A DNA stretch of 64,000 nucleotides from Choanephora cucurbitarum (taxonomy: Eukaryota; Mucoromycota; Mucoromycetes; Mucorales; Choanephoraceae): the NCBI GenBank assembly GCA_025331435.1, contig JAIWNI010000031.1:186001-250000 (forward strand), written 5' to 3'. The position numbers were made by a program, and so were the translations under genes. Shown in pieces: positions 4,621-56,500 of this stretch. The notes beneath the pieces are model-generated. The model was not told the DNA's origin, made no database searches, and saw only the letters and a program-made list of their open reading frames with translations. The first letter of the stretch is position 1, and every line of letters starts with the position of its first letter.

Positions 4621-6404
4621 ATGTTAGTAACTGAAACTTTTCATGGCTACATCGAAACAACACAAGATGTTCTGTTAATTTTTGAAGGCTGTCGACGTGG
4701 ATTGTTACCAAGGATATGTAGACGTCTTCAGGAACGAGAGCGAAAAATGATTCGGTCCGGTTCTATTTTTGTCTTTGACGAACGGGAGTCAGGTATTGTC
4801 TACAGTAGATAGAGAAGCAAAATAACTTATTATTGAGTAAAATAGGCATCAAGCGTTGGACAGACGGCAGAGTCTGGAGCCCATCACGTATCTTGGGCAA
4901 TTTTCTAATTTATAGAGAACTGGATAAGAAGGCAGCAGGCGAAAAGAAGCTCTCTCAGCCAAGCATGTTGCCTACGTCTACTAGACGAAGCTTCAGTCTT
5001 GACAATACACTCATTGACAGAAACAAAGAGCGTCAGTTGATTGGCAGTCTATCTGATTCTTATCGTTTCAAAGAAGACGGGCTGATTAAAAAGACAATGT
5101 CTATCATTGTAAACGGTGTTGCTCAACATCTGATTTCTTACTACGACCCAAATGAAGTCTTACAAGAGAAATTGCGCTCTCCCTCTTCGGTTCCTGAATT
5201 AGCCAGCCTAGAAATCTCACCTGAATTGTTGGTCAAACAAAACTTTCGTATACCACCTCTTGTCGAACCTACTTTTGACCTCCCCGACCATCTTGGGCAT
5301 CATGGTCATCACCAGCAAGGTTCGCTTACTCCTCCAGATCCTACAGCTTCTAACAGCTATAATCGAATGATACACCCTCTTAGAAGCATGTCCGTTGGGT
5401 CTATTCGTGGCCATGAGCAAATGGTTATGCGCAACGAAGGCATCATGTATCATCCTTATCAACAACAACAACAACAACAACAACAGAGAATGGGTCCTCA
5501 ATCGCCATCTCTCCAAAATCATTTCCAACACTCACTTTCTTCTCCGAACCCAACGAACAATATACCAGCTAATATTTATCACCACGATCAACCTCACCCA
5601 CAGACTAGTACAAGTAGTGTATTCCCAACAACCTCTACTTCTACTACCATACCATCACCATCTACCTTAACTTCTTCCCCTAGTACACCCATGCTCTCAC
5701 CTGCTCGTTACCATCAACAAAACCATCAGCGCCACTACTCTACTTCTTCTGTCTCCTCCCCTCCGCTCCCGAGATTTGATCCCCGTAATTACACAGCAGC
5801 AGCAGCGGCAGCAGCAGCGGCAGCAACAACAGAATCTTTCTTTGACCGCCAGTCTCAACCAAACACGATGAGCCAGATGATGTCTAACCCATCTGTTGAT
5901 AGCTATCATCATTCAACACAACCACCACAACATAACGAAAGGTTCGCCTCGCCCAACATTGGTCAACTTTTGAATCCTATTCACCCTCTTAATAGCACAA
6001 GTACAAACAGTACGACCAACAATAACGGCAATTCAGCTAATGATCACCATACTGCAAGTAGCTCATCTCCTTCTACTCCACCTCCCACAGGCGATGTCTT
6101 CTTGAATCACTCTCATCAGCAGCACCCTTATGATTACAATAATGTTGTCAACCCTACACCTACTACCAGCTCTTCTTTGCGTAACTCCATCAGTCACTCA
6201 GACGAAACTAGTGAGAATAATACCCAAGCAATACCTAGTCACCATCACCCTTCACACCAAAACCATCGACACCATAGTATCCATGAAATGAGCGATCATC
6301 AACACGGTGATGGAGTGAATGGTTACTACATGAACTACTACCAACGTCCTTCTTTGCCTGACACACAGATACATAACGGCTTCATGTTCCATTCACAACA
6401 TTAG
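4621..6404 (+). CDS. WOPR-domain (Gti1/Pac2/Wor1/Ryp1 family) transcription factor
   Basis: DNA-binding regulator of the fungal WOPR family, whose characterised members control morphological switching, nutrient response or sporulation. Exons are 4621-4792 and 4846-6404, giving 576 aa. Exon 1 carries the first conserved box (ETFHGYIETTQDVLLIFEGC, then RRGLLPRICRRL, and DERESG). The 53-bp intron splits the Gly codon just before IKRWTDGR.WSPSRILGNFL.YREL, so the intron sits inside the DNA-binding box. The second WOPR box (DRNKERQLIGSLSDSY.FKEDGLIKKTMS) follows around residues 135-180. The rest is low complexity: a CAA-encoded Gln run (about 5458-5485), a GCA/GCG-encoded Ala run (about 5797-5830), and His-, Ser-, Thr- and Pro-rich tracts, as in other WOPR proteins. 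The family call is firm; the paralogue (Gti1 versus Wor1/Ryp1) is not resolved. Confidence 0.93.
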
Positions 6405-7454: not shown

Positions 7455-10400
7455 ATGTCTATATATACATCTGCATTGCCCAATAATGGGCAGAAGAAGG
7501 ATAACGGGAAAACTAATGAGGCATTACTTAGACTGGGCGATGAAATCATCTTTCATGACTATAATAACAACGTTCTTACTGCTCAAAATCCACTTGAGAC
7601 TCGGGCATGTGTTCGACCAGATTCTTCCCGAAATGCAATGGGCACTACTGTTTTTCGGATAGAACCTCAACAATCCTATGCTGCTCAAAGAGAGCTTGAA
7701 AATTTCATCGATCGCGATGATTATGAAGTGCTCAAAAGTAAGGCAACTCGCGAGGAGCTCAAGCATCTCGTTTTTCTCGAACAAAAAGCGGCTAAAGAGA
7801 CAGCGCAAAATGAATCGGAAAGGGATCGGCTATTAGGCAAACCTGTCTTATACGGTCAGATTGTACAGCTATTTAATCGACACTTCAATAAATACCTGAC
7901 AGTCACCGGTAAGACTCAGCGATCGTCGACACACCAAAATCGATTGCAAGTCGACTTGTCTAATGAATGGATTGGTTATTTTCGTATTGTACCGAGGTAT
8001 CGAATTAAATATGTGGGCGATACTATTCGGATAGGCGAAACAATAGCACTTCAATCTGTCCGACCTGAGGGGTTCCTAAACGTAGACTACTCAAAGAGCG
8101 AAGATGGAGATGAATACCAAGTTTTCTCGCATACACAAACATGTTCTTGGGGGATGAAACTGCATTATTCACCTATTACAGATCAAGATGCTAAACGAGT
8201 TAAATTTGTAAACTCGGGACAATATATCAGGCTCTATCATAAGGAAATAGAGGCATATTTAGAGGCGCCAGCCATCAATGGGTAATGTAAAAAAATGCAA
8301 GAACAGAAAAGACTCAAGTTGTATGCAAAATGGAGCGGATTATCTAACTAGGAAATTAATAGAGATACAGTTATACTGAGAAAGCATACGATAAACCCTC
8401 TAAATCCAAAAGAAAACGACTCTCCATTGGCTTTTTGGGAGGTAATATTGTGTTGAAGGAATTGTATGAATCGCAATACTCACAGAGAATCCAATTAAGA
8501 TCGAAAACCTGGATACTTCGGGAAGCTCAAAAGTAAGATGGAAGAAATCAATTCGCATACGGCATGTTGTATCTCGAGCTTATCTTTCCATTGATCCCAC
8601 TCATGTCCGAATTGATGTCGCAAAAGGAAGGACAACATGTACTTTAAAACTAGTCCAATATCCAGTTGTTCCCATCGACGTAAATCAAGATACCACTCTA
8701 TTTGAATTGACACCCATTTCAGCACCTACAATCAGCAGTATACCCTATGGATCCATGGTGAGAATAAAGCATGTAGCAACCGGATGTTGGCTACATGCGC
8801 CTGACAGTCAAGAAGATACACCTCAAGCCATCCAAACGACTCAAATACACTCTTCGCCTATAAATGTAGCACCATTGACTTTATCTCCTTTGCTAGGAAG
8901 CAAGAGACATTCTCGGTTTGAATCTACTGAATCCTCTTTTACACCTTTGGTAGATCAAGCCCAATATGTGGAGCCATTGGATGCAGCGGAAATCATGGGC
9001 AACCATTGGAGTCCCTCTGCTACCTATCATAGCATCAGTGCATCTCATGACTTCTACTATCATGATTGTTTTTCAATTACGCTAGTTGATCAGAAAATGG
9101 CAGATAAGTTTAATTTTGTGAACGAGATGGTGCCTACGTTACATCGCTATTTATCAAAAAACAGATTCTCTGAGAAGGAGGTCTATCCGATTCAGGACGA
9201 CGAGTTTGAGTCCGTCTCACAGGTCTTGGGTGCATTGATTCATTTCTGTACTATAAGCAAACAAGACGATCCTTTGAAGAGAGAAGGCTTGCCTATTGTG
9301 TATCATCAGGCATTGCTAAAAGATGTTGACATTGCTACTCTTCTGGTTAATATTATCATGGCACCATTCGACCACAAGAAGCGGGACAGCTTTAAAGAAA
9401 AACTCTCTCAACATCAGCAAAAGAAGGCAGATGGCCAGATGAGTGAAAAAGAGGTGTCCTTAGAAGATCTTGAGTATAATCCTAAGCTCAAGAAAATTCT
9501 CAAATTGGCATATCACTTGTTACGGGCTTTTCTCAATCGTGGACCTATCATAGAGCAAGATAGCAGTGAAAACGAAGAAGCTTTAGAAAGGAACAAGACA
9601 TATCAGCTTTTCACCTTAAATGAATTTGGCTATGAAGGCATCAACTTACTTATCCGACATTTGAATTATGGATTGGGCGCATCAGATGTACTAAATCGAC
9701 TTTTGGAAGCGATTGAATATAAGAACATGATGAGTCAATCTGTTCTAGATAGTCTAGTTGAAAAAACTTTGATCAATGTACAACATGTTGTAGATGCATT
9801 AAGAAGTGACAACTCCTGGAGCAAGCCTATCCAAAAAACAGATTTCAGCTGCATTCGTCTGTTGAGCGCTGTATGTTATCGTGCTGTTGCACCTACGAGA
9901 GCAAACACGACAGCCACATCTTTGCTGCTCAGATTCAGAGACAGATTATCAGAAGATTGGTTTCAAGTAGGAGACCAGTCCTTTATCAGGATGCGTTTGA
10001 AAGAGCAAGGCGAAGTTGAGATAAAGATATGCAATGATATTTGGCGAGATTTAGAGAGCTTATCTGAAATACAGCCCAACATATTTTCTTTTGTGGAGGA
10101 TGCTTTAGATTTGGCTTATTCGCTTTCAAGCCAGACAAATACAAAAATTAGTACTCTTATTAGTGAGTGTATTAGCAAGGAAGTATGTTTTCAATGTCTG
10201 AAAAACAAAAAGCTGCCGCCTACACTACGTGGAAAATTTTGTGATCTTTTAAGAGGTAGGATCTAGAAAAAACAATCAGAGTGGCAGAGAAGCTAATTGA
10301 ATTTTGTATAGTTCTCTATGTTGATAACTCAAGACTTGAAAAAGTGCCTCTCTATGACTACACAATTTACATCGAATCTATTGATTTGAACAGCGACCAA

Positions 10401-13400
10401 TATCCTTTCGGTTCATCTAACATAGATTCAGAGTTCTTCCAGAGCTTGAAACATTGGATATTTGGATATCTTGAGACTCAATTCCATCAGGTAAAAGCAG
10501 TAGACAAAGATATTAGAAGAGATAGTTATACGAAACCAACGTGTCCATTTATAGTATATTGAGAGCTCAGAGGATGTGCGCTTTTTGTCTTGCGTCCTTA
10601 AATTGATACATGTCCAACTTACTCTTGGATTCTTCCATACCACTGAAGATATAGCTGTACTCTTCCATACTCTTATACAGGTGCTAGATGGTCGTACGGA
10701 TGCCAGGTAAGATAAAACTTAGTTTATAGATTTTTTGTGCTGACACTTAATTGATACCTCTTATAGAAGCGAAGAACATCGCAAGTATATGATGGATGCT
10801 AATATGCCTCGAAAATGGCCAGAGAGATACGAATTGGCAGAAAAAAAGCAAATGGTTATGTCAACAAAGATACAGATTCTGTACATCTTTGATTTAATTT
10901 TCGACTTAAGACTTAGAGTAAGAATGTCCAAATTAGCGCAAATATGGAAATGGGTTCTTGAAGAGTAAGTATATGCCCTTTGCCGTCCTGTTTTGTTTTG
11001 ACCAGTCAATGTTCTAGTGAATCTGCTGAATATCATACATCTCCTGATTCTTCTGGATTGAAGTACATTTTGCAAGTGTTTGATCAAACAGAACTTCGTA
11101 ATCGGGAAGAGAGCCTAATGCCCATTCTCAAGGACATGCTCAAGTATCAATACGCACCTTTGAAGCACATCGCAGTTGTAGTCATGCATCGTATCTTTAC
11201 TGATAGTGAAGGTATTATACAAGTATACGAAAATTTTGCTTAAATCGACTGACCTTGTTTGAAAAAACAAATAGAATTGTTCAAGAAAGTCAAAGAAGCT
11301 GTAATCCTTACTGAAAAAGAACAACATAATACCTACCTCCTCATCAAGGATCAACTGAACCGGTTACAAACATTGAATCTTGTGAATATTGAAAATGAGG
11401 AGCAATGCTTACAGCACTTGTCTCGATTAAAAGATTCGATTGAGACATTAGAAAAACTTCTAATTGTTCCTTTGTCAGGCGATCAAGTATCAGCCCGATA
11501 TGACGAAAGTATTTATTATCGTATTTTCAAGAGTCTTGACGCCCACGATATCCTTGTTGGCGTGCTCAAGTCGCTTCAAAATATTCCAGCGCCCTATTAC
11601 CATGCTTATGTTGCTTCTATCGTTTCCTGTCTTCGCTTACTTTATAGTACAATGCAACACGATAAGCAGTTTCAGAGCCAATTTGTTCTAAACCATATGG
11701 ATCTTTTGATTGAACTTATCCAATTATCGCCTTTGATTGCTGAAATTTTTGCACTTCTTTGTTCAAGCAATTCATACATCAGCACGCATATAAAGGAAGA
11801 GCACATCACCCGCATTATTACTGCCTCTGAAGGACATCAAGGCGAGCACCTGCTTGTACTTCATGACCTTTTGTATGCACAAGGAAAACTAGTCAAGCGT
11901 AATCAAGATATTGTTATGCGTTTTTTTATGGATCATCGACATGAATTCATGCCTTTTGATAATGCCGAAAGTTTGGTACATATGCATAATTCCGATTATT
12001 GCATCAACTTGATCAGTATCTTGGCTACATGTGGCCAAGGCGAAAACATGTTTGGACAATCGTTTGCTCGTACGGTTCTTACGATACAGGACATCTTTCG
12101 AATACTTCATGACAGCCAAGTCAATATAAAACTTAAGGCGGTCATACTCAAGTTTCTTGCTTCGATTTATATTGAAGATGTTGAACTTCCTTCCAATGTA
12201 CTTGCTTACGACAGTCCAGATATGTTGAGGTTAATTACCATGTCCGAAGTTGTTCTGTCTCAATGCTTGTCTGGAAAGCATGATGAAGAATTTTTGCGTT
12301 ACATATTCCATGGCATCATCACCTTCTTGAAGTCTATTTTTGAGTACCACATTTCAATTGAAACTGTGGTGGATTTGGAAGCACGTTTCACACAGTTAGT
12401 GGATCAAATAGTAAAGCTAGTACCTCTTGCAGCTCACGAAGAGAAGGACTTGCAACTTGTACTTGGGTGCCTGGACAGCATGATTAACGTGGCTGGATTT
12501 AGAGGAACCATACAACCTATATTGTTGAGAGACACAATAAAGGATGCCACATCTACACTTGATCAGCTTTATGCACGAAGTCAGCATTCCCATTCAAATC
12601 TACAAGGCTCTGATGATATACCAGTGGCAAAGTTCGTTCCTATACAAGATACAGCTAACATCAGCTTTCAAAAGCTGTTCTCTGATATCGAAGCGAGTGC
12701 ATCTGTTAAGAGATACCAGAAGGACGAATATAGAAGACTCTGTAAGTAAAAAGCATAGATTTTTTTTTTATGATTTTACACATTATTAATACTTTTATTG
12801 ATGTATGTACTTATATATACAGGCTCTCATTTTGCCTTATCGGAGTCAGACTCAGATAACAACAGCAACATCAAATCATTGATTGTCTATTTGGGTACCA
12901 TCACTACAACCTCAGTTAATAAGCGCACAGAGCAATATCAAGTAGCAACAATTCAATTGTTGAAAGAGATTTCAATGAAGTATATACGAAAGCTATGGAA
13001 GATCAATCCAAACGAATCTCTTGTTGAATATGAGAAGTTAGAAAGACAGAAAGTCAAAACACAAAACACTCTTAATGATCTCGGTTGCACGCTTGTAGCT
13101 CAGCACTTACTTTCTTCTCCAAGAAAGCAAATTTTTAATGCCGCTTTGAAGCTATTGATCTCCCTCTTGGATGGTGGCAACAAAAACGTTCAAGTAAGCT
13201 TTTATTCGATGTTATCTTCTTCTTTTAAGTACATGTGCTAATGAAGATGCTTCTTTTGTATAGGACAAGTTAGAGGAATACTTTTACAGTATTAGAGAGG
13301 AAAGATTTTTCTATTCTTTCCATCAGCGTCTGCAAAGTGGAATCAGTGCCTCCAAAGATATGCAGATTTACCTTGCTCGTCGAATGTACAAAATGAATCG

Positions 13401-16248
13401 CCAACAATACGTACTTGAGAATCTTGCACAGCAGCGAAAAAAGACGCTCAAGAAGCACAAGAGAGATTCATCTGCAAACTTCTTAGATCCAAACTCGCTC
13501 AACAACTATAAGCCTATCCTGAAATATACTCTTGCAGGGCAATTGACTCATCAGGAAAAGGAAGCCAATGCTATATATAGAGAAATTACTCAAATCATGG
13601 TTGCAAGTAATGACTCGGTATCGATGCATAACTCAGTAACAAAGGACCTTGAAGTTACTAGAGATGCTATGCGAGCTTTACAATTGATGGTTGAAGGACA
13701 TAACTTACATCTACAAACATATTTGGCCAAACAGCCTGATAACATCAAGAGCTTTAACATTGTTTTAGATGTTGTCGAATACTTCCATGCCATTGTGCCT
13801 CTTTGCAATCAAAAGAACATTGATTTGATCATCCAAGTAGTAGACACGATTACTGAATTGGCTCAAGTAATAGCTTACTACATATTGTTACTTGCTTTCA
13901 ATCTAATATGATGTTTGAAATTAGGGTTGTTTAGAAAATCAAGTTACCATATTTAACAACAAGATTGTCAACCCAGTCAATGTTATCCTTAGAGAACCAT
14001 ATATAGGTTGCGATATTGATAAAGTTAACGAACTCAAGGCAAGTTGATGTTGTGTTACATTGTGTGGAGTCTAATGGATTTAAAATAGTCAAAGGTGGTT
14101 ATTTGTTTACTCAGTTTGTTGGAAGGCGGTATTGAAAACAGTGAAACTTTGTATCGAGAGATGGTTGAATCGCTTGATCTATCTGCTGTCAAGAGCAACA
14201 TGGAATTGATCTACAACACAAACTTACCTAACTTGAAATCGTTTGAGAAATTGGAATGTGGTTTTCTGTATTGCATATTGATTATGACACTTCATCCAGC
14301 TTTAGATCCAGATCAGGTTAGGATTGAAAACCCCTTTCTTTTAGTAGGCAATAGACTGACTTGCGAACGATAGGCGGCTTTGTTCCTTGAAGACAACAAA
14401 GCTTTCGAGTATTTCCAAAGCCATACCGGAAAAATAGAGATTTTGATGGATTATGGACAGGAAAAGCAGCTAACTCGAGTTCTGTTTCCTATTCCTGAGA
14501 TTTGCCGGTTCTTGAGAAAAGAAACAAGGCAGAGATTTTTGTGGAATGCCAAGCGGTAATTTGCACTAAAAGAGGATACAAGCAAGTGAACAAAACTAAC
14601 TTCTTATGATTAGAGAGTCTCCCTCAAGCAAAATAGAAGATTTTGTACAACAATCCGAAATCATCATTTTTGAGTGAGTTTATTCTTCAAAAAAGAAAGA
14701 AAGAACTGACAAACAACATAGAATCGAAAATCAAGCACATATATCAAGCAGTCCATACCTTTCTTTGCTGACGATGTATAGTGCTTTTTGGTGGGAGTCA
14801 GCTTATGGTGTGACGGTCTTGCTGAATATGCTTTTGATGATGTACCCCAATTTACTGGAGGTGACTCTTGAAAGCAAGGTCCATCTATTAGCAACAGTCT
14901 GCCGCTACTTCCTTGGATTGTTACATCTAGTACTCTGGTTGTTACTAACTACTGAATTTTATTTGATTAGATTACCTGTATTGATCAACAGACGATATGG
15001 GTCTCTAAGCACTGATTTCATATCAACGTTCAAGGCTACTATAACAGAATCACGCTTTTTGTATCATATAGCAATGGTGGTACTTTCTGTAGTAGGGCTG
15101 TTCTATCCAGGGTTTTACTCGGTTCATCTATTAGATCTACTTTTCCGTGATAGTGTATTACAAGGAGTTATTTCAAGCATCACACTTAACATTCACTCTA
15201 TTTCACGCACTGTGAGTACATTCTGATTTGTTTTGTTGTTACTTTTGGTAAACTTATATTGGATCTCGTTTTTTTTGGTAGGCTCTCCTGGGTATCATTG
15301 TGATTTATATTCATAGTATCATTGCTTACATGTATTTCAGAACGGAATTTGATACGTCAAAAGGGCTCTTTTGTGGATCTTTATCAGAGTGCTTCATTAC
15401 TGTTCTATCACATGGGTAAACACAGCAAACAATCAGAAGCTGAAACGGATACTAAAGATGAGAAAACATAGTGTACGATCTGGTGGCGGTATTGGTGATA
15501 TTTTAGAACCAGATGAACATATGCGACCTAGTGGATGGAGAACTGTTTTTGAAATGTCGTTTTATTTGGTGGTAGTTGTGTTCTTGTTAAATGTTATTTT
15601 CGGTATCATTTTTGACACTTTTGGACATCTTCGTGATGGTAACTATTTACTCGAAAACATTCAAATGCAACAATTGAGCCTAAAGAATCTTTTTCCTCTT
15701 TTTTTCGTAGAGAGATCATCCATTCAGCAAGACATGAAGGATTGTAAGTACTTTTTGAAGAGCTTTTGTTATAACGAATCAATCTATTTACAGTTGAAAA
15801 TTAGCTTGTTTCATTTGCAGTATTCCCGCTGTAGAGTTCCAGCGTCATACAAAGAAGGGTTTCGAGGACCATGTGAAGAATGATCATAATATATGGTATT
15901 GTTATGTGAAAATCGATTTGTACCGTCATAGTCTAACCCTTAGATTTGTAAAGGCAATACCTGTTCTTCTTGGTTCATCTGCGAAACAAAGATCCAACAG
16001 AATATACTGGTCCAGAATCATATGTTGCAACATGTCTCAGAAATGGAGATTATAGCTGCTTTCCAATTAACAAAGCGCTAGGGTTGAAGAAGGAAGAGCA
16101 AGATGATGATGAAAGATTGGAAAAGCTTGAAGAAACTAATCAGCTACTCATTAAAAAACTTGGAAAATTAGAGGAACAGCTCGAGAAACTTAATGAAAAT
16201 CAATCTCGTTCAAGACAGAATAGTTTAATGATACAGAGCTTTTCCTGA
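7455..16248 (+). CDS. Inositol 1,4,5-trisphosphate receptor homologue (intracellular Ca2+-release channel)
   Basis: Twenty-exon model, 2,543 aa. Exons: 7455-8281, 8363-8441, 8488-10255, 10312-10490, 10555-10706, 10767-10964, 11018-11211, 11275-12741, 12823-13193, 13264-13866, 13925-14038, 14089-14316, 14374-14555, 14614-14673, 14722-15211, 15282-15415, 15472-15638, 15711-15743, 15805-15895, 15954-16248. All phases agree. Order of domains: N-terminal beta-trefoil (suppressor-like, about 25-260), MIR repeats (about 260-460), RIH domain (about 480-890), helical middle, RIH-associated segment (about 1740-2060), a multi-helix channel region (about 2150-2400) with selectivity filter GGGIGD (animal form GGGVGD) and S6 FGIIFDTF.HLR. 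After the channel come a C2H2 linker (CFIC...H.K.DH), the motif KDPTEYTGPESYVA and a C-terminal coiled coil. Animal IP3Rs are about 2,700 aa, so this is near full length. It should sit in the ER or vacuolar membrane. Several IP3-contact residues look changed (see findings). Intron 11 (14039-14088) uses a GC donor. Exact borders of introns 1, 2 and 17 are less sure. Confidence 0.93.
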
Positions 16249-26434: not shown

Positions 26435-27469
26435 TCAAAAGTCTTCCTCGTTCACTTTTCTTGCATTCTTCCGTTGTTCTAATTTCAAGGCTTTCTTTTC
26501 TTGTCGTCTACTAAGTGCAGTAGGTACTGAACTGACTGCATACATCTTTTGTTGCTCAAAAAACTCATTTAGAGTCTCAGGGCTTACATCATCCAGTGTA
26601 AATTGACCCAATTTGCCTGTTCGATAATGCTTCAAGAAAAACTTGGCTGCCATCGTCAAGTCCATTTCGCCTCCCTTTGATATAGCACCAATACGTTTAG
26701 CTACACCTTCCAATAAATGGTTCACGTCATTTGTTGGCTGCTCCTCAGGCAGCTTGAACCAGCTAGCATAGTCATAAGCACCAAACTGATTCAAACGATA
26801 GAGTAGATAATCCACCATAACTTGCTCATCGCTCAAATGATCTCGGATCCCGCCTGTTAAAGCTACCTTCAGACTCCTCACAGGATCGGCAATATGAGGT
26901 ACCATAACACCAGGCGTATCTACCAAATAGACAGTGGGATCTTCAAGTACCTTGATTGTCCCAATCACTGTACGTGTGATACCTGGTTGTGCCCCTGTAG
27001 CTGCTGCTTTTCCTTTTCCAACGCCTACACGGCGAAGTGCATTAATTAAAGATGATTTACCTACATTAGGCATGCCTACAACCATCAGCGTCACTTGTGG
27101 AATTGGATGAGCAAGATCGGCAGCATGATTCAGGATCTGTCGGACATTGATGTCATTTTGACAGCTAGTAAACAAGACTGGTGTTGTGGGTGCATGCTTG
27201 TTGAAAGCCGTGAGTATAGGCGCCTTGGAGGATGGGTCAGCTAGATCAAACTTGTTGTATACAATCAGTCGAGGTCTTTTACCAACCACTTTCTCAAAGT
27301 TAGGATTAATGGAAGAGAGAGGGATTCGAGCATCTCTCACTTCGACTACTAGATCAACTGAATTAAGACGTTCTGAAATAAGTCGTAGGCCTTTTGCCAT
27401 ATGGCCAGGAAACCAGTTGATCACTCGGTCATATGGAAATGAAGTTCTGGGTATAAACCGCTGTGCCAT
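26435..27469 (-). CDS. MTG1: Mitochondrial ribosome-assembly GTPase (MTG1/YlqF/RbgA family)
   Basis: Circularly permuted GTPase needed for assembly of the large mitochondrial ribosomal subunit. Single exon; about 344 aa from the ATG at 27469 (MAQRFIPR). An upstream in-frame ATG at 27487 adds only six residues. Motif order is permuted as in YlqF: G4 (YNKFDLAD) comes before G1 (GMPNVGKSSLINAL), then G2-like GAQPGITRT and G3 DTPGV. Also seen is the family's INWFPGHMAKGL near the N-terminus. The C-terminus is Lys/Arg-rich. The gene converges on TERT, with stop codons about 35 bp apart, and diverges from the RBM42-like gene across about 136 bp. Confidence 0.95.
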   Translation of the reverse strand: MAQRFIPRTSFPYDRVINWFPGHMAKGLRLISERLNSVDLVVEVRDARIPLSSINPNFEKVVGKRPRLIVYNKFDLADPSSKAPILTAFNKHAPTTPVLFTSCQNDINVRQILNHAADLAHPIPQVTLMVVGMPNVGKSSLINALRRVGVGKGKAAATGAQPGITRTVIGTIKVLEDPTVYLVDTPGVMVPHIADPVRSLKVALTGGIRDHLSDEQVMVDYLLYRLNQFGAYDYASWFKLPEEQPTNDVNHLLEGVAKRIGAISKGGEMDLTMAAKFFLKHYRTGKLGQFTLDDVSPETLNEFFEQQKMYAVSSVPTALSRRQEKKALKLEQRKNARKVNEEDF

Positions 27470-27605
27470 ACTATAAAAAAAATTCAAGAACTAAAGAATC
27501 TCCTCTCCCTTCCCCCTTTTACTTCTGCCTAACTTTTTATATGTGACTTGTGCAGGTTATTTTTTCTTTTCTTTTCTCTTTCAACTTTCTAGAAGAATTA
27601 CACGA

Positions 27606-32083: not shown

Positions 32084-32133
32084 CTTAAACCCCCCCGGAA
32101 GATCCTACATCACTGATATTACCTGCACTACTT

Positions 32134-34200
32134 TTGCAACTACTACAAATGTCAAGCCAAACTGAAAACAACATTATCACTGCTCTCAATCAAATCGTCA
32201 CTCAGAACCGCTACGCTGCCCTGCAGAACATGCGTCTGATTTACAACTATGTACCTGGCTCCAACATCGAGCTCTGGCTACGGCTATACCATGAAAAGGG
32301 GCAACGACTAGGCCTAGACGACAACATGCTCATTGATCAACTCCCTTCTTACCTCCCACTGGATATGGCTCAATGGATCTTGTCTAGTCCGTCACTCAAT
32401 ACATGGGAAAAGATCAAGGAAGCCCTGATCCAAACATACGGTATCCCGGTAGCTACTCAGAAGCAAATGTGTAAAGAAAAGCTCGAGTCCTTGCGACAGG
32501 GTAACCTCCCAACAAGACAGTTCAAAGCAAGATTTGAGCTGATCTTACAGGAATTGCCGGAAGGTGCTACGCTCTCTACGGAGGTCTTACGGTCCATCTA
32601 CCTGCGCGTCATGAACCAACAGCTCGCAATCAAAATCTTTGGCTTTGTAGACTCCAGCTGGACATGGGACAAGGTTGCGGACAAAGCAATCAGCATCGAA
32701 GACATGTTGGTTGCAGACCATCAACTCGCGGCTGCCCATCTTTTCGGAGGGCAGGCTACTATGCCAACACCGCCTCCCCAACAGGTCCCTTTCACGCAGT
32801 CACAGGCCCTGGTTTCGCCTCATTCTGGTCCATCTCCCATGGAGATTGATGCTTTTCGCCCTCGCGAGCGCAACGGAAAATCTCGTGGCAACCACGGTTC
32901 TACTCCGAAAGGAAAATACAATCAATGGGTTCGCCCTGGGGTTCCTCTATGTGGTCACTGTGGTAGGGAAGGGCATCTGTCCAAGAGATGCCGACAGAAC
33001 GGAAAGGGTGCTCGTGTAAATGCCTTGGTAGAATCAACTCCTGTCGCTGATGCTCCCGACTGGGTGCCATACGGGTCGCCAGAAAACGAGATGCTTCCAC
33101 CTGCTGCAGCCTCTGTCAATTACGCTGTGGTCCATGAAGCTCAAGAGTCAGTACCTGTTGCTCCTTCACCCATCGACAACAAGGATGCCATCCACTCGCT
33201 TTGTTATCTGAGTCAAGCGGTAAAATACCGTGAGGGTTCTACTCTCAAGTGCTCTCTCCTGGGACAAGACACAACTTGCCTGATCGACACGGGTGCAACT
33301 GTTTCGGCGATTTCAGCAAAGCTCGCTCACAGTCTCAAGATACCTATTGACGCCACTCAACGATTGTGCTTCACCACCGCTACTGGTCAAGACACTTGGA
33401 CGCACGGGGCTGCCGAAGTACGAATCCTCCTAGGAGAAATCCCTATGCAACTTCGTTGTCATGTTGTGGATCAGCTCGCCTACCCTATCATCGTGGGCAT
33501 TCGAGACTTAAAAGCTCACAAGGCTGTCATTGATCTAAGCTCAAACACAATTCAATTCCCTGGTTCTTCTGCTGGTGTGTCCCTCGGTTCTCTCTCTGGT
33601 GGTCTCTCTGGTGGTCTCTCTGGTGGTCTCTCTGGTTCTGACTCGGCTCCGATGGCTACTCACGGTTTCTCTGTTAAGGCGCCCAAACGCTACTTGGATA
33701 AACCCCATAGCTGCGTCATGAGCGATACCTTAAAGCTTCCTGGTCATCATCACGCCTACTGTACTATCCGCGGTCCTCGTAATACGCTTGCAATGGTCAC
33801 CACTCCAACGGACCTGGCCGCCAAAAGTCTGGTCGCTGTGGCCGCTGGCATCGTTCAATTTGATGATCAAGGAGAAGCTACTGTAAAACTTGCTAACTTA
33901 GATATTAAAAATCAAATCATTAATAAAGGACGACGTATCGCCATTGCTGAGTACTTACCTTCGTCTTTTGAATGTATTTCACTATCCTCCTTATGCGCCT
34001 TGCAAGAAACTAAGAACTCATCTCCTTCGTCGTCTCCGGACTTCTCTAACGCCTTAGGTGATACTCTCACTCCCTCACAGGCAAAACAAATGGTCTCACT
34101 ACTCCAGGACTTCTCAGATTGTTTTGATAGTACCTCCAGCTCGACTACTCCTCTTGTCAAGCATCGTATCGACACAGGGCGATCACAAGGCCGGTTTCAA
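32134..34200 (+). CDS. Retrotransposon Gag and aspartic protease (5' part of the polyprotein)
   Basis: Open from the ATG at 32134 (alternative ATG at 32149) through about 680 codons before frame is lost near 34179. Gag-like helical region: residues 30-190. CCHC zinc knuckle: CGHCGREGHLSKRC (about 274-287). Aspartic protease: LIDTGATVSAIS with the D-T-G active site (about residue 388), followed by IIVGIRDLKAH. A tandem Gly-Leu-Ser-Gly repeat encoded by a 12-bp unit lies at about 33592-33640. The frame then continues into the RT leader region, where two closely spaced +1 changes (about 34179 and 34190) break it. Codon use is richer in GC than in host genes. Confidence 0.9.
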
Positions 34201-35580
34201 GTCCTCCTCACCGCGCCTCCGCTGCCGAAAACAATACTATCAATGGCCTCATCGATGAGATGCTCCAACAGGGTATTATTCGTCCTAGCCGTTCTCCGTG
34301 GTCTTCGCCTGTTGTCTTGGTGCCTAAACCAGATGGTTCAGTTCGCTTCTGTGTGGATTATCGCCGTCTGAATGCAGTCACTACAAAGGATGTCTATCCT
34401 CTCACTCGAGTTGATGATGCACTACACAGTCTGGGAAACGCCAAGTACTTCTCAACGATGGATCTCACTTCGTCCTACTGGCAGATTGAGTTGGATGAAG
34501 AAAGTAAGCCCAAGTCAGCTTTCGTTTGCCGTCGTGGTTTGTTTGAGTTCGTCCGTATGCCCTTTGGTCTCTGCTCTGCTCCCGCTACCATGCAACGTCT
34601 CATGGACTCCGTTCTCGCTGGCCTCAAGTGGCAAACTTGCTTGGTCTACTTGGATGACATTATCACATTCAGCCCTACATTTGAACAACATCTCAAGGAT
34701 CTACGCGAGGTGCTCGAGCGCCTCCGCCAGGCCTCTCTCAAGGTTAAGCTCTCCAAGTGCCACTTTGGCAGTTCTCGAATCTCTTTCTTAGGTTACGTCT
34801 TGTCTCCCGCTGGTCTCCATACGGATCCTGAAAAGGTCCGTGCTGTTGCTTCTCTTCCGGTTCCTTCCTCGGTTGAAAGTCTCCGCTCCTTCCTTGGTCT
34901 CGCTGGTTACTACAGGTGTTTCATCAGTCGGTTCTCCCAGGTCGCTGCTCCGCTCACTGAACTTCTCCAGGAAGATGCTTCGTGGTCTTGGTCTGAACGT
35001 CAGCAAGAAGCTTTTGACTCTCTGCGTTCCGCTCTGCTCTCTGCGCCTGTCCTTCGCTTCCCGGATTTCACTAGACCTTTTGAATTGCACACTGACGGTG
35101 CTTGCTCTTCTGGGATTGGTGTTATCCTTTGTCAAGCGTGATCCCGACAATAACAGAGCTTACGCAGTTGCCTACGCGTCCCGGTCCCTATCTCCTGCTG
35201 AGAAAAACTATGGTGTGTCAGAAGTCGAAGCATTGGCTATCGTGTGGGGCATCCGAAAGTTTGCTCACTATCTCACTGGTACTAGGTTCACAGTCGTTAC
35301 GGATCACCATGCTCTGCAATTCCTCCAGTCCAAGAAGTCGACCGATCTGCGTGGACGTTTGGCTCGCTGGGCTCTCATGCTACAACAGCACGATTTTACC
35401 ATTGTCTACCGTCCTGGTCGTGATAATACTGGTCCTGACGCTCTTTCCCGGTATCCTGTCTCTTCTCCTTCGGTGTCCTCTTTGGTGTGTTCTCTGGCTA
35501 TTCCTGATCTTGTGTCGGCTCAGTCTTCTGATCCCTTCTGTCGTGAAATTCGAGGCAAGTCGTCTCTTCCCCTCTGGTTT
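34200..35580 (+). pseudogene. Retrotransposon reverse transcriptase and RNase H, frameshifted
   Basis: The reverse transcriptase is open in one frame from about 34195 to 35135. It shows the conserved fingers (PWSSPVVLVPKPDGS.RFC.DYR.LN), palm motif A (FSTMDLTSSYWQ), motif B (MPFGLCSAPATMQ) and motif C with the catalytic YLDD. RNase H begins with HTDGAC and, after a +1 frame change at about 35136, continues with YASRSLSPAEKNYGVSE.EALAIVWG and DHHALQFL. The readable frame ends at 35584-35586 (stop). All catalytic motifs are present, but no single frame joins them. Confidence 0.9.
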
Positions 35581-36764
35581 TGCTGACGAGTCCGGTGTCC
35601 TCTTCTTTGGTGCCCGTCCGGTGCTGCCTGAATCTCTGCGAAATGAAGCATTCGACCTTCTTCACTGCAACACTACTACAGGTCACCTAGGCACATCTCG
35701 TACACTACAACGGTTTATTCGTCTCTTCTACTTCCCAAACATGCAAGAATGGATAAAGAATAAAATCAGTTCCTGTGAAGTCTGTCAAAGGGTCAAGACT
35801 CCTCGCGTTACCCTCGGCCGAACGGCAATGGTGCATTCAGACTCACCTACGCAACCCTTCGAATATATCGCTATTGACACATTTGGTCCACTCCCGGTCT
35901 CTCGGTTGATGAATCGTTATATTGTGGTTGTTCAATGTCTCTTCTCGAGATATGTGGTACTGTATCCCATTCCAGAAAACAATGACTCTTGCTTGATCCG
36001 TTCACTGCTGAATCTCTTTGGCCATTATGGTCTCGTACGGTGTATCCTCAGTGATAATGGCAAGCCATACACTGGGCAGTTGGTTCAAAAGCTCGCTAGT
36101 CATCTCCAGGTGAAGCAAAAGTACACACCCGCGTATCACCCTCAGGCAAACGGGTTAGGTTGAACGCTTTATGGAAACCCTACGCAACATGATTGTCTCA
36201 TATATGGAACTGCGAACTCAACAGAATACTTGGGATGAACATTTGAACGAGTTCATGATGGCTTACAACTCAAGCGTGCACGAGTCTACGAAGTTCACCC
36301 CCTTCAGCTTGGTCCATGGCCGTGAACCGCGCATGTTGGTCTCTCCCGATTTTGGTTCGAAACCTCTGTCCCCTGCTGAACATCGAGCTCAAGTACAAGA
36401 CTATCTCAAACGAGCCTACGCTGTGGTTCAGTTGGAAAATGTCCATACACAGGCCAAGAATGCCATGCTGTTCAACGAACACCGACAGACACCGACATTC
36501 CAACTTGGCGACGCTGTGCTGGTCTACTTTGCTGTTCAGTCGAACTCATCAATGGGGCGTTCTGGAAAAATAACTCGAAGTTGGCGTGGTCCTTTTCTGG
36601 TAACGGAACCTCTTTCTCAAGACAGGTATAACTTGGTGGAAGTCTCGACAATGAAAAGCTGGACAAATGTGCATGCCTCGCGAATGAAACCGTACAACTA
36701 TGAGAATGTGGCCATTCCTCTGAATAACCCCCCGGATGTCATGAGCGCTGGATCTGAATTCTGA
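35580..36764 (+). pseudogene. Retrotransposon integrase, frameshifted
   Basis: Linker and HHCC zinc-binding region (H...GHLG, then CEVCQRVK) are followed by the catalytic core with first Asp in IAIDTFGPLP, second Asp in CILSDNGKPY and the YTPAYHPQANG motif. A +1 change at about 36158 separates this from the segment 36171-36764, which carries the helix after the third acidic residue and the C-terminal region (SWRGPFLVTEPLSQDRYNL). A stop at 36762-36764 ends the frame 27 bp inside the right LTR. No chromodomain was recognised. Confidence 0.88.
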
Positions 36765-44596: not shown

Positions 44597-45243
44597 GGTG
44601 ATCTGGTTTCTTCGAGAAAGAAGAGAAAAAAAAATAGACAGGTTCAACTCTAAATTTGTGCTTACAACAGTCACAAAGCAGCCACTAAAGTGTCAATGCA
44701 TAAACATTGTGTTACCTTTCAAATGAAGGTTATATTGAACTTATTTATCTTGTCTGCTCATGCATCAAAATCAATCGTTGACGATTCGGCCAAAAACTGC
44801 CATCACTTAAGCTTAAAGCTGTTTCATGTGTTATCATGCAATACACACACGCACTATTGTTTGATAAAAAAAAAAAGAAAAGAAGGTCTCCTTATCATGC
44901 CTGTCTAAAAAAAAACAAGCTTTCTTTTATTAAACAAAAGAATGTAGTATGACTTTGACCTCATGCATCTTTTATCAAGAGTCAATCTCATTTATTGAGT
45001 CAAGTTGCGTTTTTGTTGTTCATGTTGATGCAACACCTTATTACTTAGCACCCGATTGGCTCTATTGATTTGGTGTGTGAAAAAAAAATTCACACTCTTT
45101 AAACAGATGGCGCAATTCAGAGTCAATGTCAGGACATGGTAATCACGCAATTCAAAATTTTATAGAATGTATAAATAAGCAAGTATGAACATACAACCAA
45201 ACAGCCCTATTTACTTTTTTTTTTTGTTATATCACTCACTATC
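44597..45243. other. Divergent intergenic region
   Basis: About 650 bp between the divergent MRD1 and TauD-family genes, so it should contain both promoters. A poly-T run precedes the TauD start. No motif is asserted. Confidence 0.5.
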
Positions 45244-46365
45244 ATGTCTGCTGCTGTTTCTCGACCTAAAATTCAAAAAAACTGGCGAAGTTTTCACGTT
45301 GAAGGAGAAAACCATACATCTGATGCTCAATTCCCTGATCGTATCATTGGACCTTCTGTATGGGATGGCAAAACGCTAGAAGAGCATCATGAACAATGGA
45401 CCTATCACTTGACACCAGAAGACATTGATGATATTGATCAAGCATTACGCCACTTTTTGTCCTTGGATATTCCTCTCTCTCAAATCACATCGGATCATTT
45501 CCCTCTAGGTCACTTCAAGGACGTCTTATTAGAACAACGCAAAGGCCTATTTCACGGTCTGGGCTTTGGCCTGTTGCGTGGATTCCCTATCGAGCGCTAT
45601 GAACGCAAGGAACAAGTCATCATTTTTATGGGTATTGGGTCCTATATTGGTGTACGTAAACCTCAAAACGGTAAAGGACATGTCTTGGGCCATGTTAAGG
45701 ACTTGACAGAACACTCAACTACAAAGCAAGTCTATCTGCAAGATGATCCCACAACACGTATTTATGCTACTCGTAAAGCACAACCTTTTCATGTGGACGG
45801 CACAGATGTGGTAGCCCTACTCTGTTTATCAGAGGGTTATGAGGGCGGATTAAGTTCAATCATCTCTTCTCATACAGTCTACAATTGCTTAAGAGAAACA
45901 AGGCCTGACATAGTTGAATTACTGAAACAACCTTGGCTATGGGACCGTAAGAATGAACATGGGCCAGATGAGCCTGGCTATCTAGCTGCTTCTCCCTTAA
46001 ACTATCACCAAGGTCGTTTGTTTACCTTTTGGGGACCTCATTTCCTCGAGACAGTCAACCGGTTCCCTGGCGTTCATGTTGAGCAAGAGAAGTTTGAAGC
46101 CATGGATTATATCCAAAAGTTATGTGAGCAAGAGGCACTCAATATGCGTCTAAGAGTAGGTGATATTCAACTCGTCCAAAACTATCAGATTCTGCATGCT
46201 CGCACAGCCTATAAGGATATACCTGGGCATACACGTCACTTGCTACGTCTGTGGTTCTCTGTAAATACAAAAGAATATGGCTGGGAGTTGCCATTTGCTC
46301 AAGATGATTATCATTATAATTATCAATATGCCACAACACAAGTGGTAGCACTTGAAGCTGAATAA
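45244..46365 (+). CDS. TauD/TfdA family Fe(II)/2-oxoglutarate dioxygenase
   Basis: Single exon, 373 aa. Metal-binding residues are visible: H-x-D in PFHVDGTD (H183, D185) and the distal His in ILHARTAY (about H318), followed by Arg residues in RHLLRLWFS that would hold 2-oxoglutarate. The sequence resembles the fungal TauD-like group often annotated as taurine catabolism or clavaminate-synthase-like. Substrate is unknown. In contrast to its neighbours it has no intron. The next gene starts only about 55 bp downstream. Confidence 0.88.
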   Translation: MSAAVSRPKIQKNWRSFHVEGENHTSDAQFPDRIIGPSVWDGKTLEEHHEQWTYHLTPEDIDDIDQALRHFLSLDIPLSQITSDHFPLGHFKDVLLEQRKGLFHGLGFGLLRGFPIERYERKEQVIIFMGIGSYIGVRKPQNGKGHVLGHVKDLTEHSTTKQVYLQDDPTTRIYATRKAQPFHVDGTDVVALLCLSEGYEGGLSSIISSHTVYNCLRETRPDIVELLKQPWLWDRKNEHGPDEPGYLAASPLNYHQGRLFTFWGPHFLETVNRFPGVHVEQEKFEAMDYIQKLCEQEALNMRLRVGDIQLVQNYQILHARTAYKDIPGHTRHLLRLWFSVNTKEYGWELPFAQDDYHYNYQYATTQVVALEAE

Positions 46366-53563: not shown

Positions 53564-56500
53564 ATGGATATGCAACTGTCAGAAAAACCTAAAGGGTATG
53601 CACGATTTAGCTTAAAGAAATAAAAGAGATTGAATTCATTCTGACTCATGTTTGACAGGTCTTCTGATCCGGCTATTTCACAAACACCTACAGTATCTAA
53701 TACACCAAAACAACCTCGACGCTTACAGAATATGTTTGATGTAGGCGATTCGGAAGATGAGGAAGAGTGTTTGACCGAGAAAGGAGAAGAGCCCGAAAAG
53801 ATGCCAACAGTTGAGCCAACGCCTAAGAAACTCAAAACAGTCGTACAGTTTCCTGACCAGTTAGAACAACGCTTTTATCATCAAAACCCCAAACCGCCTG
53901 TAGACGATGACGAAGAGTCCTTATCACCACCTCCACTTACTCGAAAAGAAAAACTTTTGAATTATCTTCATGCCAAGTTTCCGAGTCGAATTGTCCGACG
54001 AGTTCTAAAATGTACCATAGCCTACTTTATCTCTGCCTTGTTTAGTTTGATTTTACCATTGGGTCATGCTCTAGGTCCAGCACCGTTCCTGGCTACCACA
54101 GGCATGCTCTTTAGCCATCCTGGCCGAAGCATGGGTGCTCAATTCGATGCTACTGTTACAGCTGTTCTTGGTGTGTTAGCTGCTATTGTATATGCATTTG
54201 CAGGCATGGCAGCTGCTGTTGCTTACAATGTACGTCATCCAGATACCTACCTAACAGGTCGCACCATCAATGCCATCTTTTTGTTCGTCGGAATTTTCAG
54301 TGCCCAAATGTTGCGTCAAATATACCCTAAATTCCATTTTTTCTCACTGCAGTTCATGATCATACAGATTTTTAGTATGACACGTGGTGTCGACTATTTT
54401 TCTGTCCCTTTTGATTTGCCATTGCACTACGGCTTACCCCTTTTGATTGGACATGGCATTTCACTTGTTGTCAACTTGGTGATTTGGCCAGAGACAGCTG
54501 TTGATGGCCTTGGTAGAGCATTGGAAGAGACAATCACAAGCAGTCGAGACATGCTGAATATGATCACAAAACAGTTCTTTTTGGACCCTCAATCTGATGC
54601 GGTTGCTGAATCAGTCGTAGACGAGCTAGCAGCCAAAATGCGTCGAGGCATGACAAAAGTAAAAACAGCTTATCGTGAAGCCAAGTATGAGATGTCTTAT
54701 TCTTTTGTTCGTCCTCAACAACTAGGGCCAATTCGAAAATCATTGGATCGATTGACAAAGCATCTCAACATTTTAGGTGGTTGTTTAAAGACAGAACGTG
54801 AATTGTTTGAAAGTGCAATCGAGACACTTCATGCAGAAATGAGGGATTTTGATAGTGACAATGAAGACAACGAATCTACACTGGATGGCCGCCAGCACCG
54901 AGGATATGCAAGTGATCAAGAAGATAATCATCGTACTTCATTAGCAAAACATTCTTACAGTGAAGAGGACCTAAATTTACTCCGCACTGCGCTACGTGCC
55001 ACAAACGACTTTGTCAACAATAAACACCCAAGCCCGAGATCGTCGAGGCCTAATTCAAGAGCCAATTCAAGACCAAATTCACGACCCGTTTCGGCTCATA
55101 ATTCAGAAGACGAAGATGATTATTCTGAGCAAAACCAACGCTCTGTTTCTTCCCTTAAGTCTTTCCTCAGTCTACCTAAACTATCAATACCAAAACCCAA
55201 ACCGCCTCAGAAGACAAAGAAGCAAACTGAATATGATCATCGCCATCTACTTTTGACTTACTTGGAGAGTCTCCGAGATCCTTTGATGGACCTCTCTTTG
55301 GATTGTGCTAATGCATTAGAATGCGTTTGTGATAGTGTTGCTTCTGAATTTGATATCGAGACAGATGATGATGCCATTCGCAAGACTTGGAGATCCTTTC
55401 TTCGACATACCTTTAAAGTGGGTACCAAGGAACCTGATCCAGAAGATGATTTCAGAAAGTCGTTTGAACGTCATAAGGGCAGCGACCAATGTAATTGTTC
55501 GCAAAACATTCGATTGGCCATTGTTCAGTTCGACAAAGCTGAGCGTGAACGTATGCATGCACTGTATGAAATCAACAAAAATCGTATTGGATGTGAAGCT
55601 CTTGATTTAGGCATGCGTCAAGAGCTTTTTCTTGTCTTCTTCTTTATATTTACTTTACGCGAAGTAGCAAATGAGCTACAAGAAATGACAATGCATATGG
55701 ACGAAATTCATATGCAATCAAGAAAGTCAAGTTTCAATGGAAAGAGGCGCAAGCGTCTCTATTTCCCTGGATTGAATCAAAAGGTATGGCAAAAATGGGT
55801 CAAAGCAAATAATCATCAAAGTGTTCGAGACAAAGGTGGTCCTGCTTTTCGTAAGTATAGACAGAGAGTAAAATAAAAATAGGCGTGCTAAGATTTTTTT
55901 TTTATTAATCAAGGTAATTTGACAACACATATGCCCTCGGATGAACCAAAGAAAACAGAGGCAGAAGATGAATATCTCTTAACAAAAATACAAACGAATG
56001 GCAGCTTGATGAGACCAACCCGAAGAGAATCAGTAGCGGTTCAAAAGTCATTGACCCGCATTGATTCAACTTTGGAGGAAGAACCTAGCTCACCCGCCAT
56101 GCTTCGACATCGTCATAAACAACAAGATCCGATGAACAGCAGTCTGCATGATATTCGTATAGAGGTACCTCAAGCTCCAGCTGAAACAGCCAGCAATCAG
56201 TCATCTACCAAGGAAGTAAGAGAGAAAGCACCATTGATGTTACGTATTCGTTACTCCATTTGGTTTCATTTACAATACTTGAATCGCTATGAATTCAAGT
56301 TTGCTCTAAAAATGGCCATTGCCGTCTTGGTGTTGACCATTCCTTCCTTTTTACCAGTATCATCTGCATGGTATTTCAATGTTAGAGGACAGTGGGCACC
56401 TATGACTGTCATTGCTATTATGAATCCAACAAGTGGTGGTACATTGGAAGCTAGTTTCTGGCGTGTTGTGGGTACTCTTATAGGTGCATTTGTTGGATGG

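Follow-up and report, generated by a model that had tools for sequence, protein, structure and literature searches.

An intact IP3 receptor-family channel gene in the mucoralean fungus Choanephora cucurbitarum with a conserved calcium-activation site and altered IP3-contact residues

The window analysed here is a stretch of 64,000 nucleotides from Choanephora cucurbitarum (contig JAIWNI010000031.1, positions 186,001 to 250,000), a species of the Mucorales within the Mucoromycota in the NCBI taxonomy, and it carries, at 7455..16248 on the forward strand, a gene for a member of the superfamily of inositol 1,4,5-trisphosphate (IP3) receptors (IP3Rs) and ryanodine receptors (RyRs). All parts of this gene described below lie on the same strand (+). 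Rebuilt from the window sequence, it comprises 20 exons (7455-8281, 8363-8441, 8488-10255, 10312-10490, 10555-10706, 10767-10964, 11018-11211, 11275-12741, 12823-13193, 13264-13866, 13925-14038, 14089-14316, 14374-14555, 14614-14673, 14722-15211, 15282-15415, 15472-15638, 15711-15743, 15805-15895 and 15954-16248), separated by 19 introns, of which 18 are of the GT-AG and one of the GC-AG type, and closes in frame at 2543 amino acids (aa). The deposited C. cucurbitarum protein P0001 is the same save for 4 aa at the acceptor of intron 2, and 18 of the 19 introns therefore agree with the deposited gene model. The original prediction of an intact channel gene in a fungus, and of a maintained gene instead of a relic, is thus borne out by the open frame, the agreement with P0001 and the conservation in relatives. 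RIH_assoc and Ins145_P3_rec profiles each matched the 33.4-Mb assembly once, both times in this gene, which looks single-copy. As read from the sequence, the family, the intact frame, a conserved Ca2+-activation site and pore and a changed IP3 site are all evident, and the likely trigger of the channel is calcium or some other signal, not IP3 in the usual way.

Four domains are found above the Pfam cut-off and in the order typical of the superfamily: Ins145_P3_rec, the N-terminal β-trefoil (7635..8165, aa 61-237), MIR (8205..8820, a span that takes in introns 1 and 2; aa 251-413), RIH_assoc (13645..13987, taking in intron 10; aa 1873-1967) and the Ion_trans channel domain (14786..15715, likewise taking in introns; aa 2163-2406). 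The claim that all diagnostic domains are readable holds for these four. For RIH the evidence is mixed: its profile (RYDR_ITPR) has no match in the Choanephora protein and matches 3 of 3 relatives scanned, and the AlphaFold model of exon 3 (8488..10255), which encodes the second half of MIR and the RIH/ARM1 region, matches residues 281-782 of IP3R3. In the same model comparison the ligand-core region has an IP3R3-like fold. At the C-terminus, a heptad region (16114..16200, aa 2500-2528) reads as coiled-coil-like, with an APG6_N match (E 0.0085) below the cut-off. A sequence search of the PDB gave IP3R3 with an E-value of 1.8e-110 (373 bits, four stretches passing) and RyR1 with 4.3e-67, and no Pfam match to SPRY or RyR domains was found in the 2543 aa, RyRs being about 5000 aa long. 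We regard the assignment to the IP3R/RyR family as firm.

For residue comparisons, 36 fungal proteins were fetched, of which P0001 (the same as the protein of the window), P0006, P0015, P0020 and P0085 were dropped; with our own model added, 32 were scored, 17 from Mucorales including that of the window, 3 from Basidiobolus and 12 chytrid-type. The Ca2+-activation residues named in the available text of PMC9663519 (E1978, H1980, N1981, E2042, Q2045 and T2654) are present 6 of 6 in the Choanephora protein, the first three in VEGHN (13690..13704), the next two in TELAQG (13852..13927, a span that takes in intron 10) and the last in TEYTGPESYV (15997..16026); a further position, N1971, is unplaceable in the alignment, the reference fish receptor having R there. 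Across fungi these six residues are 93% identical, as against 49.5% for random sets of six drawn from 138 invariant columns, only 0.8% of which score as high. The selectivity filter RSGGGIGD (15476..15499, aa 2351-2358) and the C2H2 zinc-finger linker CFIC...H...H (15807..15887), both noted in the original prediction, are intact in the alignments. D2551 of the filter is E in six fungal proteins; the zinc-finger cysteines are conserved in all 28 fungi with a residue there (28 of 28), and 28 of 32 keep the histidines (three gaps and one replacement). Beside the linker lie the ATP-pocket contacts N2637, W2639 and K2633, all three intact in the Choanephora protein and found in 28, 27 and 23 of the 32 fungal proteins, respectively (with R for K2633 in four). 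The S6 gate LLNVIFGIIFDTF (15584..15622) retains N2583 and F2586, while I2590 is replaced by F; F2586 is conserved in 31 of 32 fungi (one gap) and F stands for I2590 in 30 (two gaps), so that both gate rings would be aromatic.

The IP3 site presents a different picture. Three of the positions scored there, R265, T266 and G268, were added as further IP3 contacts. The remaining nine (T267, R269, S274, R504, K508, R511, Y567, R568 and K569 of rat IP3R1) are named in the available text of PMC9663519. None of the fungal proteins retains K508 or Y567 (0/32 each) and, where a residue is present, none retains T267, G268 or R269 (0/31 each), with R504 and T266 each found once in 31 and R568, R265 and K569 in 3, 6 and 7 of 32; all 31 proteins with a residue at S274 have an acidic one (E or D). 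In the Choanephora protein, RKHTINPLNPKENDS (8379..8423, aa 282-296, exact register uncertain) stands where animal receptors have the IP3-binding loop RTTGRQSATSATSS, HQALLKD (9304..9324, aa 575-581; K508 to A and R511 to K) where they have RQKLMRE in the ARM1 helix, and ERNKTYQ (9586..9606, aa 669-675) where they have Y567-R568-K569; an insert close by, shared with several Mucorales, makes the register of the last uncertain. In most fungi a [DN]PL[DN]Px[ED] loop replaces the animal RTTGRQSATS. Over 11 contact positions, S274 left out, the 32 fungal proteins average 13.5% identity to animal IP3Rs, and 24 fungal rows in a second alignment average 12.5%; the register of the loop differs between the two alignments, with 12.5-13.5% identity either way, and the Choanephora protein matches at one of the 11 in each (R265 in one, T266 in the other). 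We therefore find no sign in the fungal sequences that the contact residues have been retained as a functional classical site would require, a conclusion we consider firm, and the IP3 gating implied by the original prediction is not supported.

Whether the site is less conserved than the domain around it is a separate matter, on which the data are only suggestive. Binding-core columns invariant in at least 7 of 8 canonical rows (161 columns) are 34.8% identical in fungi, and 2.2% of 5000 random column sets are as low as the 11 contact positions, or 3.9% when the nine positions of PMC9663519 are used and 9.3% with only the 8 that are themselves invariant; the other 3 of the 11 are not invariant in the eight canonical rows, and stricter sets weaken this permutation result.

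A supply of IP3 through phospholipase C (PLC) is likewise not apparent. A profile search for PI-PLC-X (E <= 0.001) and PI-PLC-Y found no exon in the assembly, the completeness of which is unknown, and neither a PLC X-domain query nor the X-box pattern E-x-D-x-W-D-G had a match there. A second X-box DNA pattern matched once, at a place lacking a frame of at least 60 aa, against two matches for reversed control patterns, and is therefore at chance level. The same profile search recovered PIP5K exons on six contigs and IPK exons on four, so that intron-split domains are detectable in this genome. These results do no more than suggest that a PLC with X and Y domains is missing from Choanephora.

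The reading we favour, with moderate confidence, is that the gene encodes an intracellular channel which releases Ca2+ and is itself opened by Ca2+, not by classical IP3 binding, because gating by Ca2+ and ATP best fits the pattern of retained and lost residues. The gene product would be one subunit of a presumably tetrameric channel of the IP3R/RyR superfamily in the membrane of the endoplasmic reticulum (ER) or another store; cytosolic Ca2+, together with ATP, would open it through the Ca2+ site shared with RyRs, giving Ca2+-induced Ca2+ release, and IP3 would not act through the classical clamp. Several observations weigh against it. At the Ca2+ site, the second-shell residue R1982 is retained in 0 of 31 fungi, and all 12 chytrid-type proteins have D for E2042. 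At the IP3 site, R511 is present in 29 of 32 fungal proteins (C in two, and K in Choanephora, which differs from the others in this). Basic residues number 5 at the 11 positions in Choanephora and 3-6 across Mucorales, compared with 7 in four of five vertebrate canonical rows (the fifth being gapped), 2-3 in RyRs and 1-4 in chytrids. The apparent lack of PLC rests on a single assembly, the PI-PLC-X/Y search at E 0.001 gave no match in any of 14 control genomes, and a lax search (E <= 10) returned a weak PI-PLC-X-like exon (E 0.007) on the contig of the window itself; this frame (1399-2016 of its stretch, minus strand; 19.8 bits against a cut-off of 23.1) has a hydrophobic start and looks like a secreted PLC-like protein. 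The available text of PMC10406608 further has the whole IP3/Ca2+ pathway persisting into Mucoromycota, until the split between Mucoromycota and Dikarya. The main caution comes from trypanosomes, whose IP3Rs are reported in the available text of PMC9694693 to be activated by IP3 despite poor conservation of the site, and lost residues are therefore no proof of insensitivity to IP3.

The channel might be gated by IP3 after all, the ligand sitting in a remodelled basic pocket to which the KKH/RKH loop and the residue equivalent to R511 would contribute along with further basic residues. The 3-6 basic residues of Mucorales make anion binding in another pose possible, the N-terminal fold is retained, and the trypanosome receptors provide a precedent. 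We nonetheless judge this unlikely, if far from negligible, in view of the uniform replacement of K508, T267, R269 and Y567, the acidic residue in place of S274, the few basic residues left in chytrids and the X+Y PLC not found in the assembly.

The protein search returned 79 hits, 30 of them fungal, followed by animals, protists and others; grouped by taxonomy, the fungal hits are 20 from Mucorales, 3 from Basidiobolus and 7 chytrid-type. A second search, with a profile built from chytrid, Basidiobolus and two mucoralean proteins, yielded 13 rows, with six new chytrid-type fungal proteins and two other new ones. No row named for Dikarya appeared in either fungal hit list, the only places where their absence was looked for. 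Rhizopus stolonifer has a partial homologue (P0015), and no other Rhizopus, Lichtheimia or Mortierella was among the hits, which may reflect loss or a limit of the search. In Dichotomocladium elegans, the IP3R-like protein P0018 (2921 aa) also carries PF00027 and PF02197, cyclic-nucleotide-binding and protein kinase A-regulatory domains, either by a real fusion or by an annotation join. The early-fungal homologues, among them P0002 of Mucor lusitanicus, P0008 of Phycomyces (annotated as 'IP3 receptor') and those of Basidiobolus and chytrids, have the same architecture as the Choanephora protein, with 28-65% identity in BLAST local alignments over 13-99% of the query (P0002-P0030), and share with it the loss of IP3 contacts, the conserved Ca2+ site and membership in one clade.

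For the first tree, 85 of 128 sequences were aligned and 12 near copies or fragments removed, leaving 73; smaller selections of 44, 25 and 18 rows served for the trees that followed. The tree of 73 rows and 641 columns from the channel domain resolves the fungi as one clade, which five molluscan IP3R-like proteins join with 95% support in the Shimodaira-Hasegawa-like approximate likelihood ratio test (SH-aLRT). With 44 rows and 2144 columns, fungi and mollusc-like proteins group at 99% SH-aLRT, and canonical IP3Rs group with amoebozoan-like proteins (Balamuthia and others) at 98%. Approximately unbiased (AU) tests on 25 rows reject a grouping of the mollusc-like proteins with canonical IP3Rs (p 3e-50) and a split of amoebozoan-like proteins plus RyRs from all others (p 0.008). 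The topology holds in the slower half of the columns with RyRs removed, where fungi plus canonical (p 0.0003) and molluscs plus canonical (p 0.0002) are rejected; the clades tested were named after the first tree, which makes these p-values optimistic, and all trees are quick searches with long branches and thin taxon sampling. We infer that the fungal channels are a clade of their own, with a molluscan IP3R-like paralogue, not the canonical IP3Rs, as the nearer relative, which is also at odds with IP3 gating as implied by the original prediction.

The molluscan proteins (P0031 of Lottia, P0032 of Liolophura, P0033 of Haliotis, P0034 of Ylistrum and P0035 of Mytilus) share with the fungi a YWQIE/FWxIE stretch after the loop and, unlike the Choanephora protein, retain K508, R511 and K569 and have an altered Ca2+ site. 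Together with P0043 they lack the GGGxGD filter, five having [RY].GLIGDMF-like sequences and Lottia HHGLSDGMY, which possibly makes them, judging by these motifs, channels of other selectivity. A tentative extension, possible but somewhat doubtful, is that an ancient second class of the IP3R family, which split from canonical IP3Rs earlier than animals from fungi, is common to non-Dikarya fungi and some molluscs; in fungi this class would be IP3-independent, with the RyR-like Ca2+ site kept and the IP3 clamp lost, the PLC step being missing in at least this mucoralean. It is only a lead, because the groups were named post hoc, branches are long, the trees quick and sampling thin. The fungal-molluscan grouping could also result from long-branch attraction, the fungal channels being plain, diverged orthologues of animal IP3Rs: both groups have long stems (1.13 and 0.63), only five mollusc-like proteins are available, and flags were raised on the long branches of RyRs and protists. 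This we consider rather unlikely, as the grouping recurs with 641 and 2144 columns and in the slower half without RyRs, and the AU tests reject the alternatives.

Less probable still is gating by another anionic ligand through the fungal-specific loop, be it a higher inositol phosphate or pyrophosphate from the IPK-family kinases of Choanephora or some other metabolite. The [DN]PL[DN]Px[ED] loop does recur across fungal rows and is unlike that of animals, and IPK-family exons are at hand in the genome; the loop may, however, be structural, and we see this as a minor candidate. That the gene is a relic or a mis-spliced model, as might be suspected from the single GC-AG intron and from several acceptors that the reading frame by itself leaves ambiguous, is hardly credible in view of 2543 open codons, 57-59% identity over 94-99% of the length to Mucor and Cokeromyces proteins (P0002-P0006) and the retained Ca2+ and pore sites.

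Set beside known systems, the putative Ca2+-gated channel resembles canonical IP3R1-3, its best match among solved structures, in domain order, GGGxGD filter, zinc finger and Ca2+-activation site, and differs from them in the unretained IP3 contacts, the I2590 to F change and its separate clade. With RyRs it has in common the superfamily, the Ca2+-activation residues and the lack of a classical IP3 site, but it is half their length, scores lower against them in the PDB and has no match to SPRY or RyR domains. Capsaspora IP3R-B, an IP3R-family channel, is reportedly insensitive to IP3 (Alzayady 2015) and may be similar in this respect. A search with P0036 gave 42 rows, mostly IP3Rs of carnivores and other mammals, RyRs and Balamuthia, and no row named for Capsaspora was among them. 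Oomycetes offer a parallel, as their IP3R homologues have a poor IP3 site or none and no PLC was found in P. infestans, according to the available text of PMC4820453 and PMC9694693.

The original prediction drew its surprise from IP3Rs being considered absent from Ascomycota and Basidiomycota. The host belongs to neither phylum, an origin from an ascomycete or basidiomycete being ruled out by the identity of the protein as that of Choanephora, and the available text of PMC9694693 already has Mucor spp. encoding IP3Rs, in addition to the pathway stated to persist until the Mucoromycota-Dikarya split (PMC10406608). Other sources, as far as their available text goes, give IP3R and RyR genes as absent from fungal genomes (PMC3410928) or IP3Rs as lost across several or all fungi (PMC7016017). 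Full-text literature searches returned nothing on an IP3 receptor in Phycomyces blakesleeanus, on an InsP3 receptor in early diverging fungi or on phospholipase C and inositol calcium signaling in Mucoromycota, and the available text of the literature searched was found to say nothing about the IP3 site in the homologues from fungi. The gene itself is thus of a known kind in an early-diverging fungus. What turns it into a testable variant is the conserved Ca2+ site set against the unretained IP3 clamp in all the fungal homologues compared, together with the failure to find an X+Y PLC.

Were the clamp indeed gone in all early-fungal homologues, homology would have been over-read as function. 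On the second-class reading, what passes for a 'retained IP3 pathway' in early fungi would be a release channel opened by Ca2+ or by some other ligand, and not an IP3 receptor. The molluscan link, if true, would redate the split within the IP3R family. Members of the Mucorales cause disease in humans as well as rots of crops, and no ER Ca2+-release channel of this order is known to have a demonstrated function; the apparently single-copy gene makes the release of stored Ca2+ in early fungi testable.

Elsewhere in the window, in which Rfam has no match, a Gti1/Pac2-family regulator (4809-6404, +) lies just upstream of the channel gene. A Ty3/gypsy-type retrotransposon-like stretch with overlapping frames (32089-36163, +) has about 50% GC, compared with about 37% around it, and encodes an aspartyl protease above the cut-off, Ty3 capsid and gag matches below it, and reverse transcriptase- and RNase H-like sequences. 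The other neighbours are ordinary: a ribosome-binding GTPase-like protein (26435-27490, -), a TauD-type dioxygenase (45175-46365, +) and an ArAE_2_N transporter-like protein (53645-55876, +).

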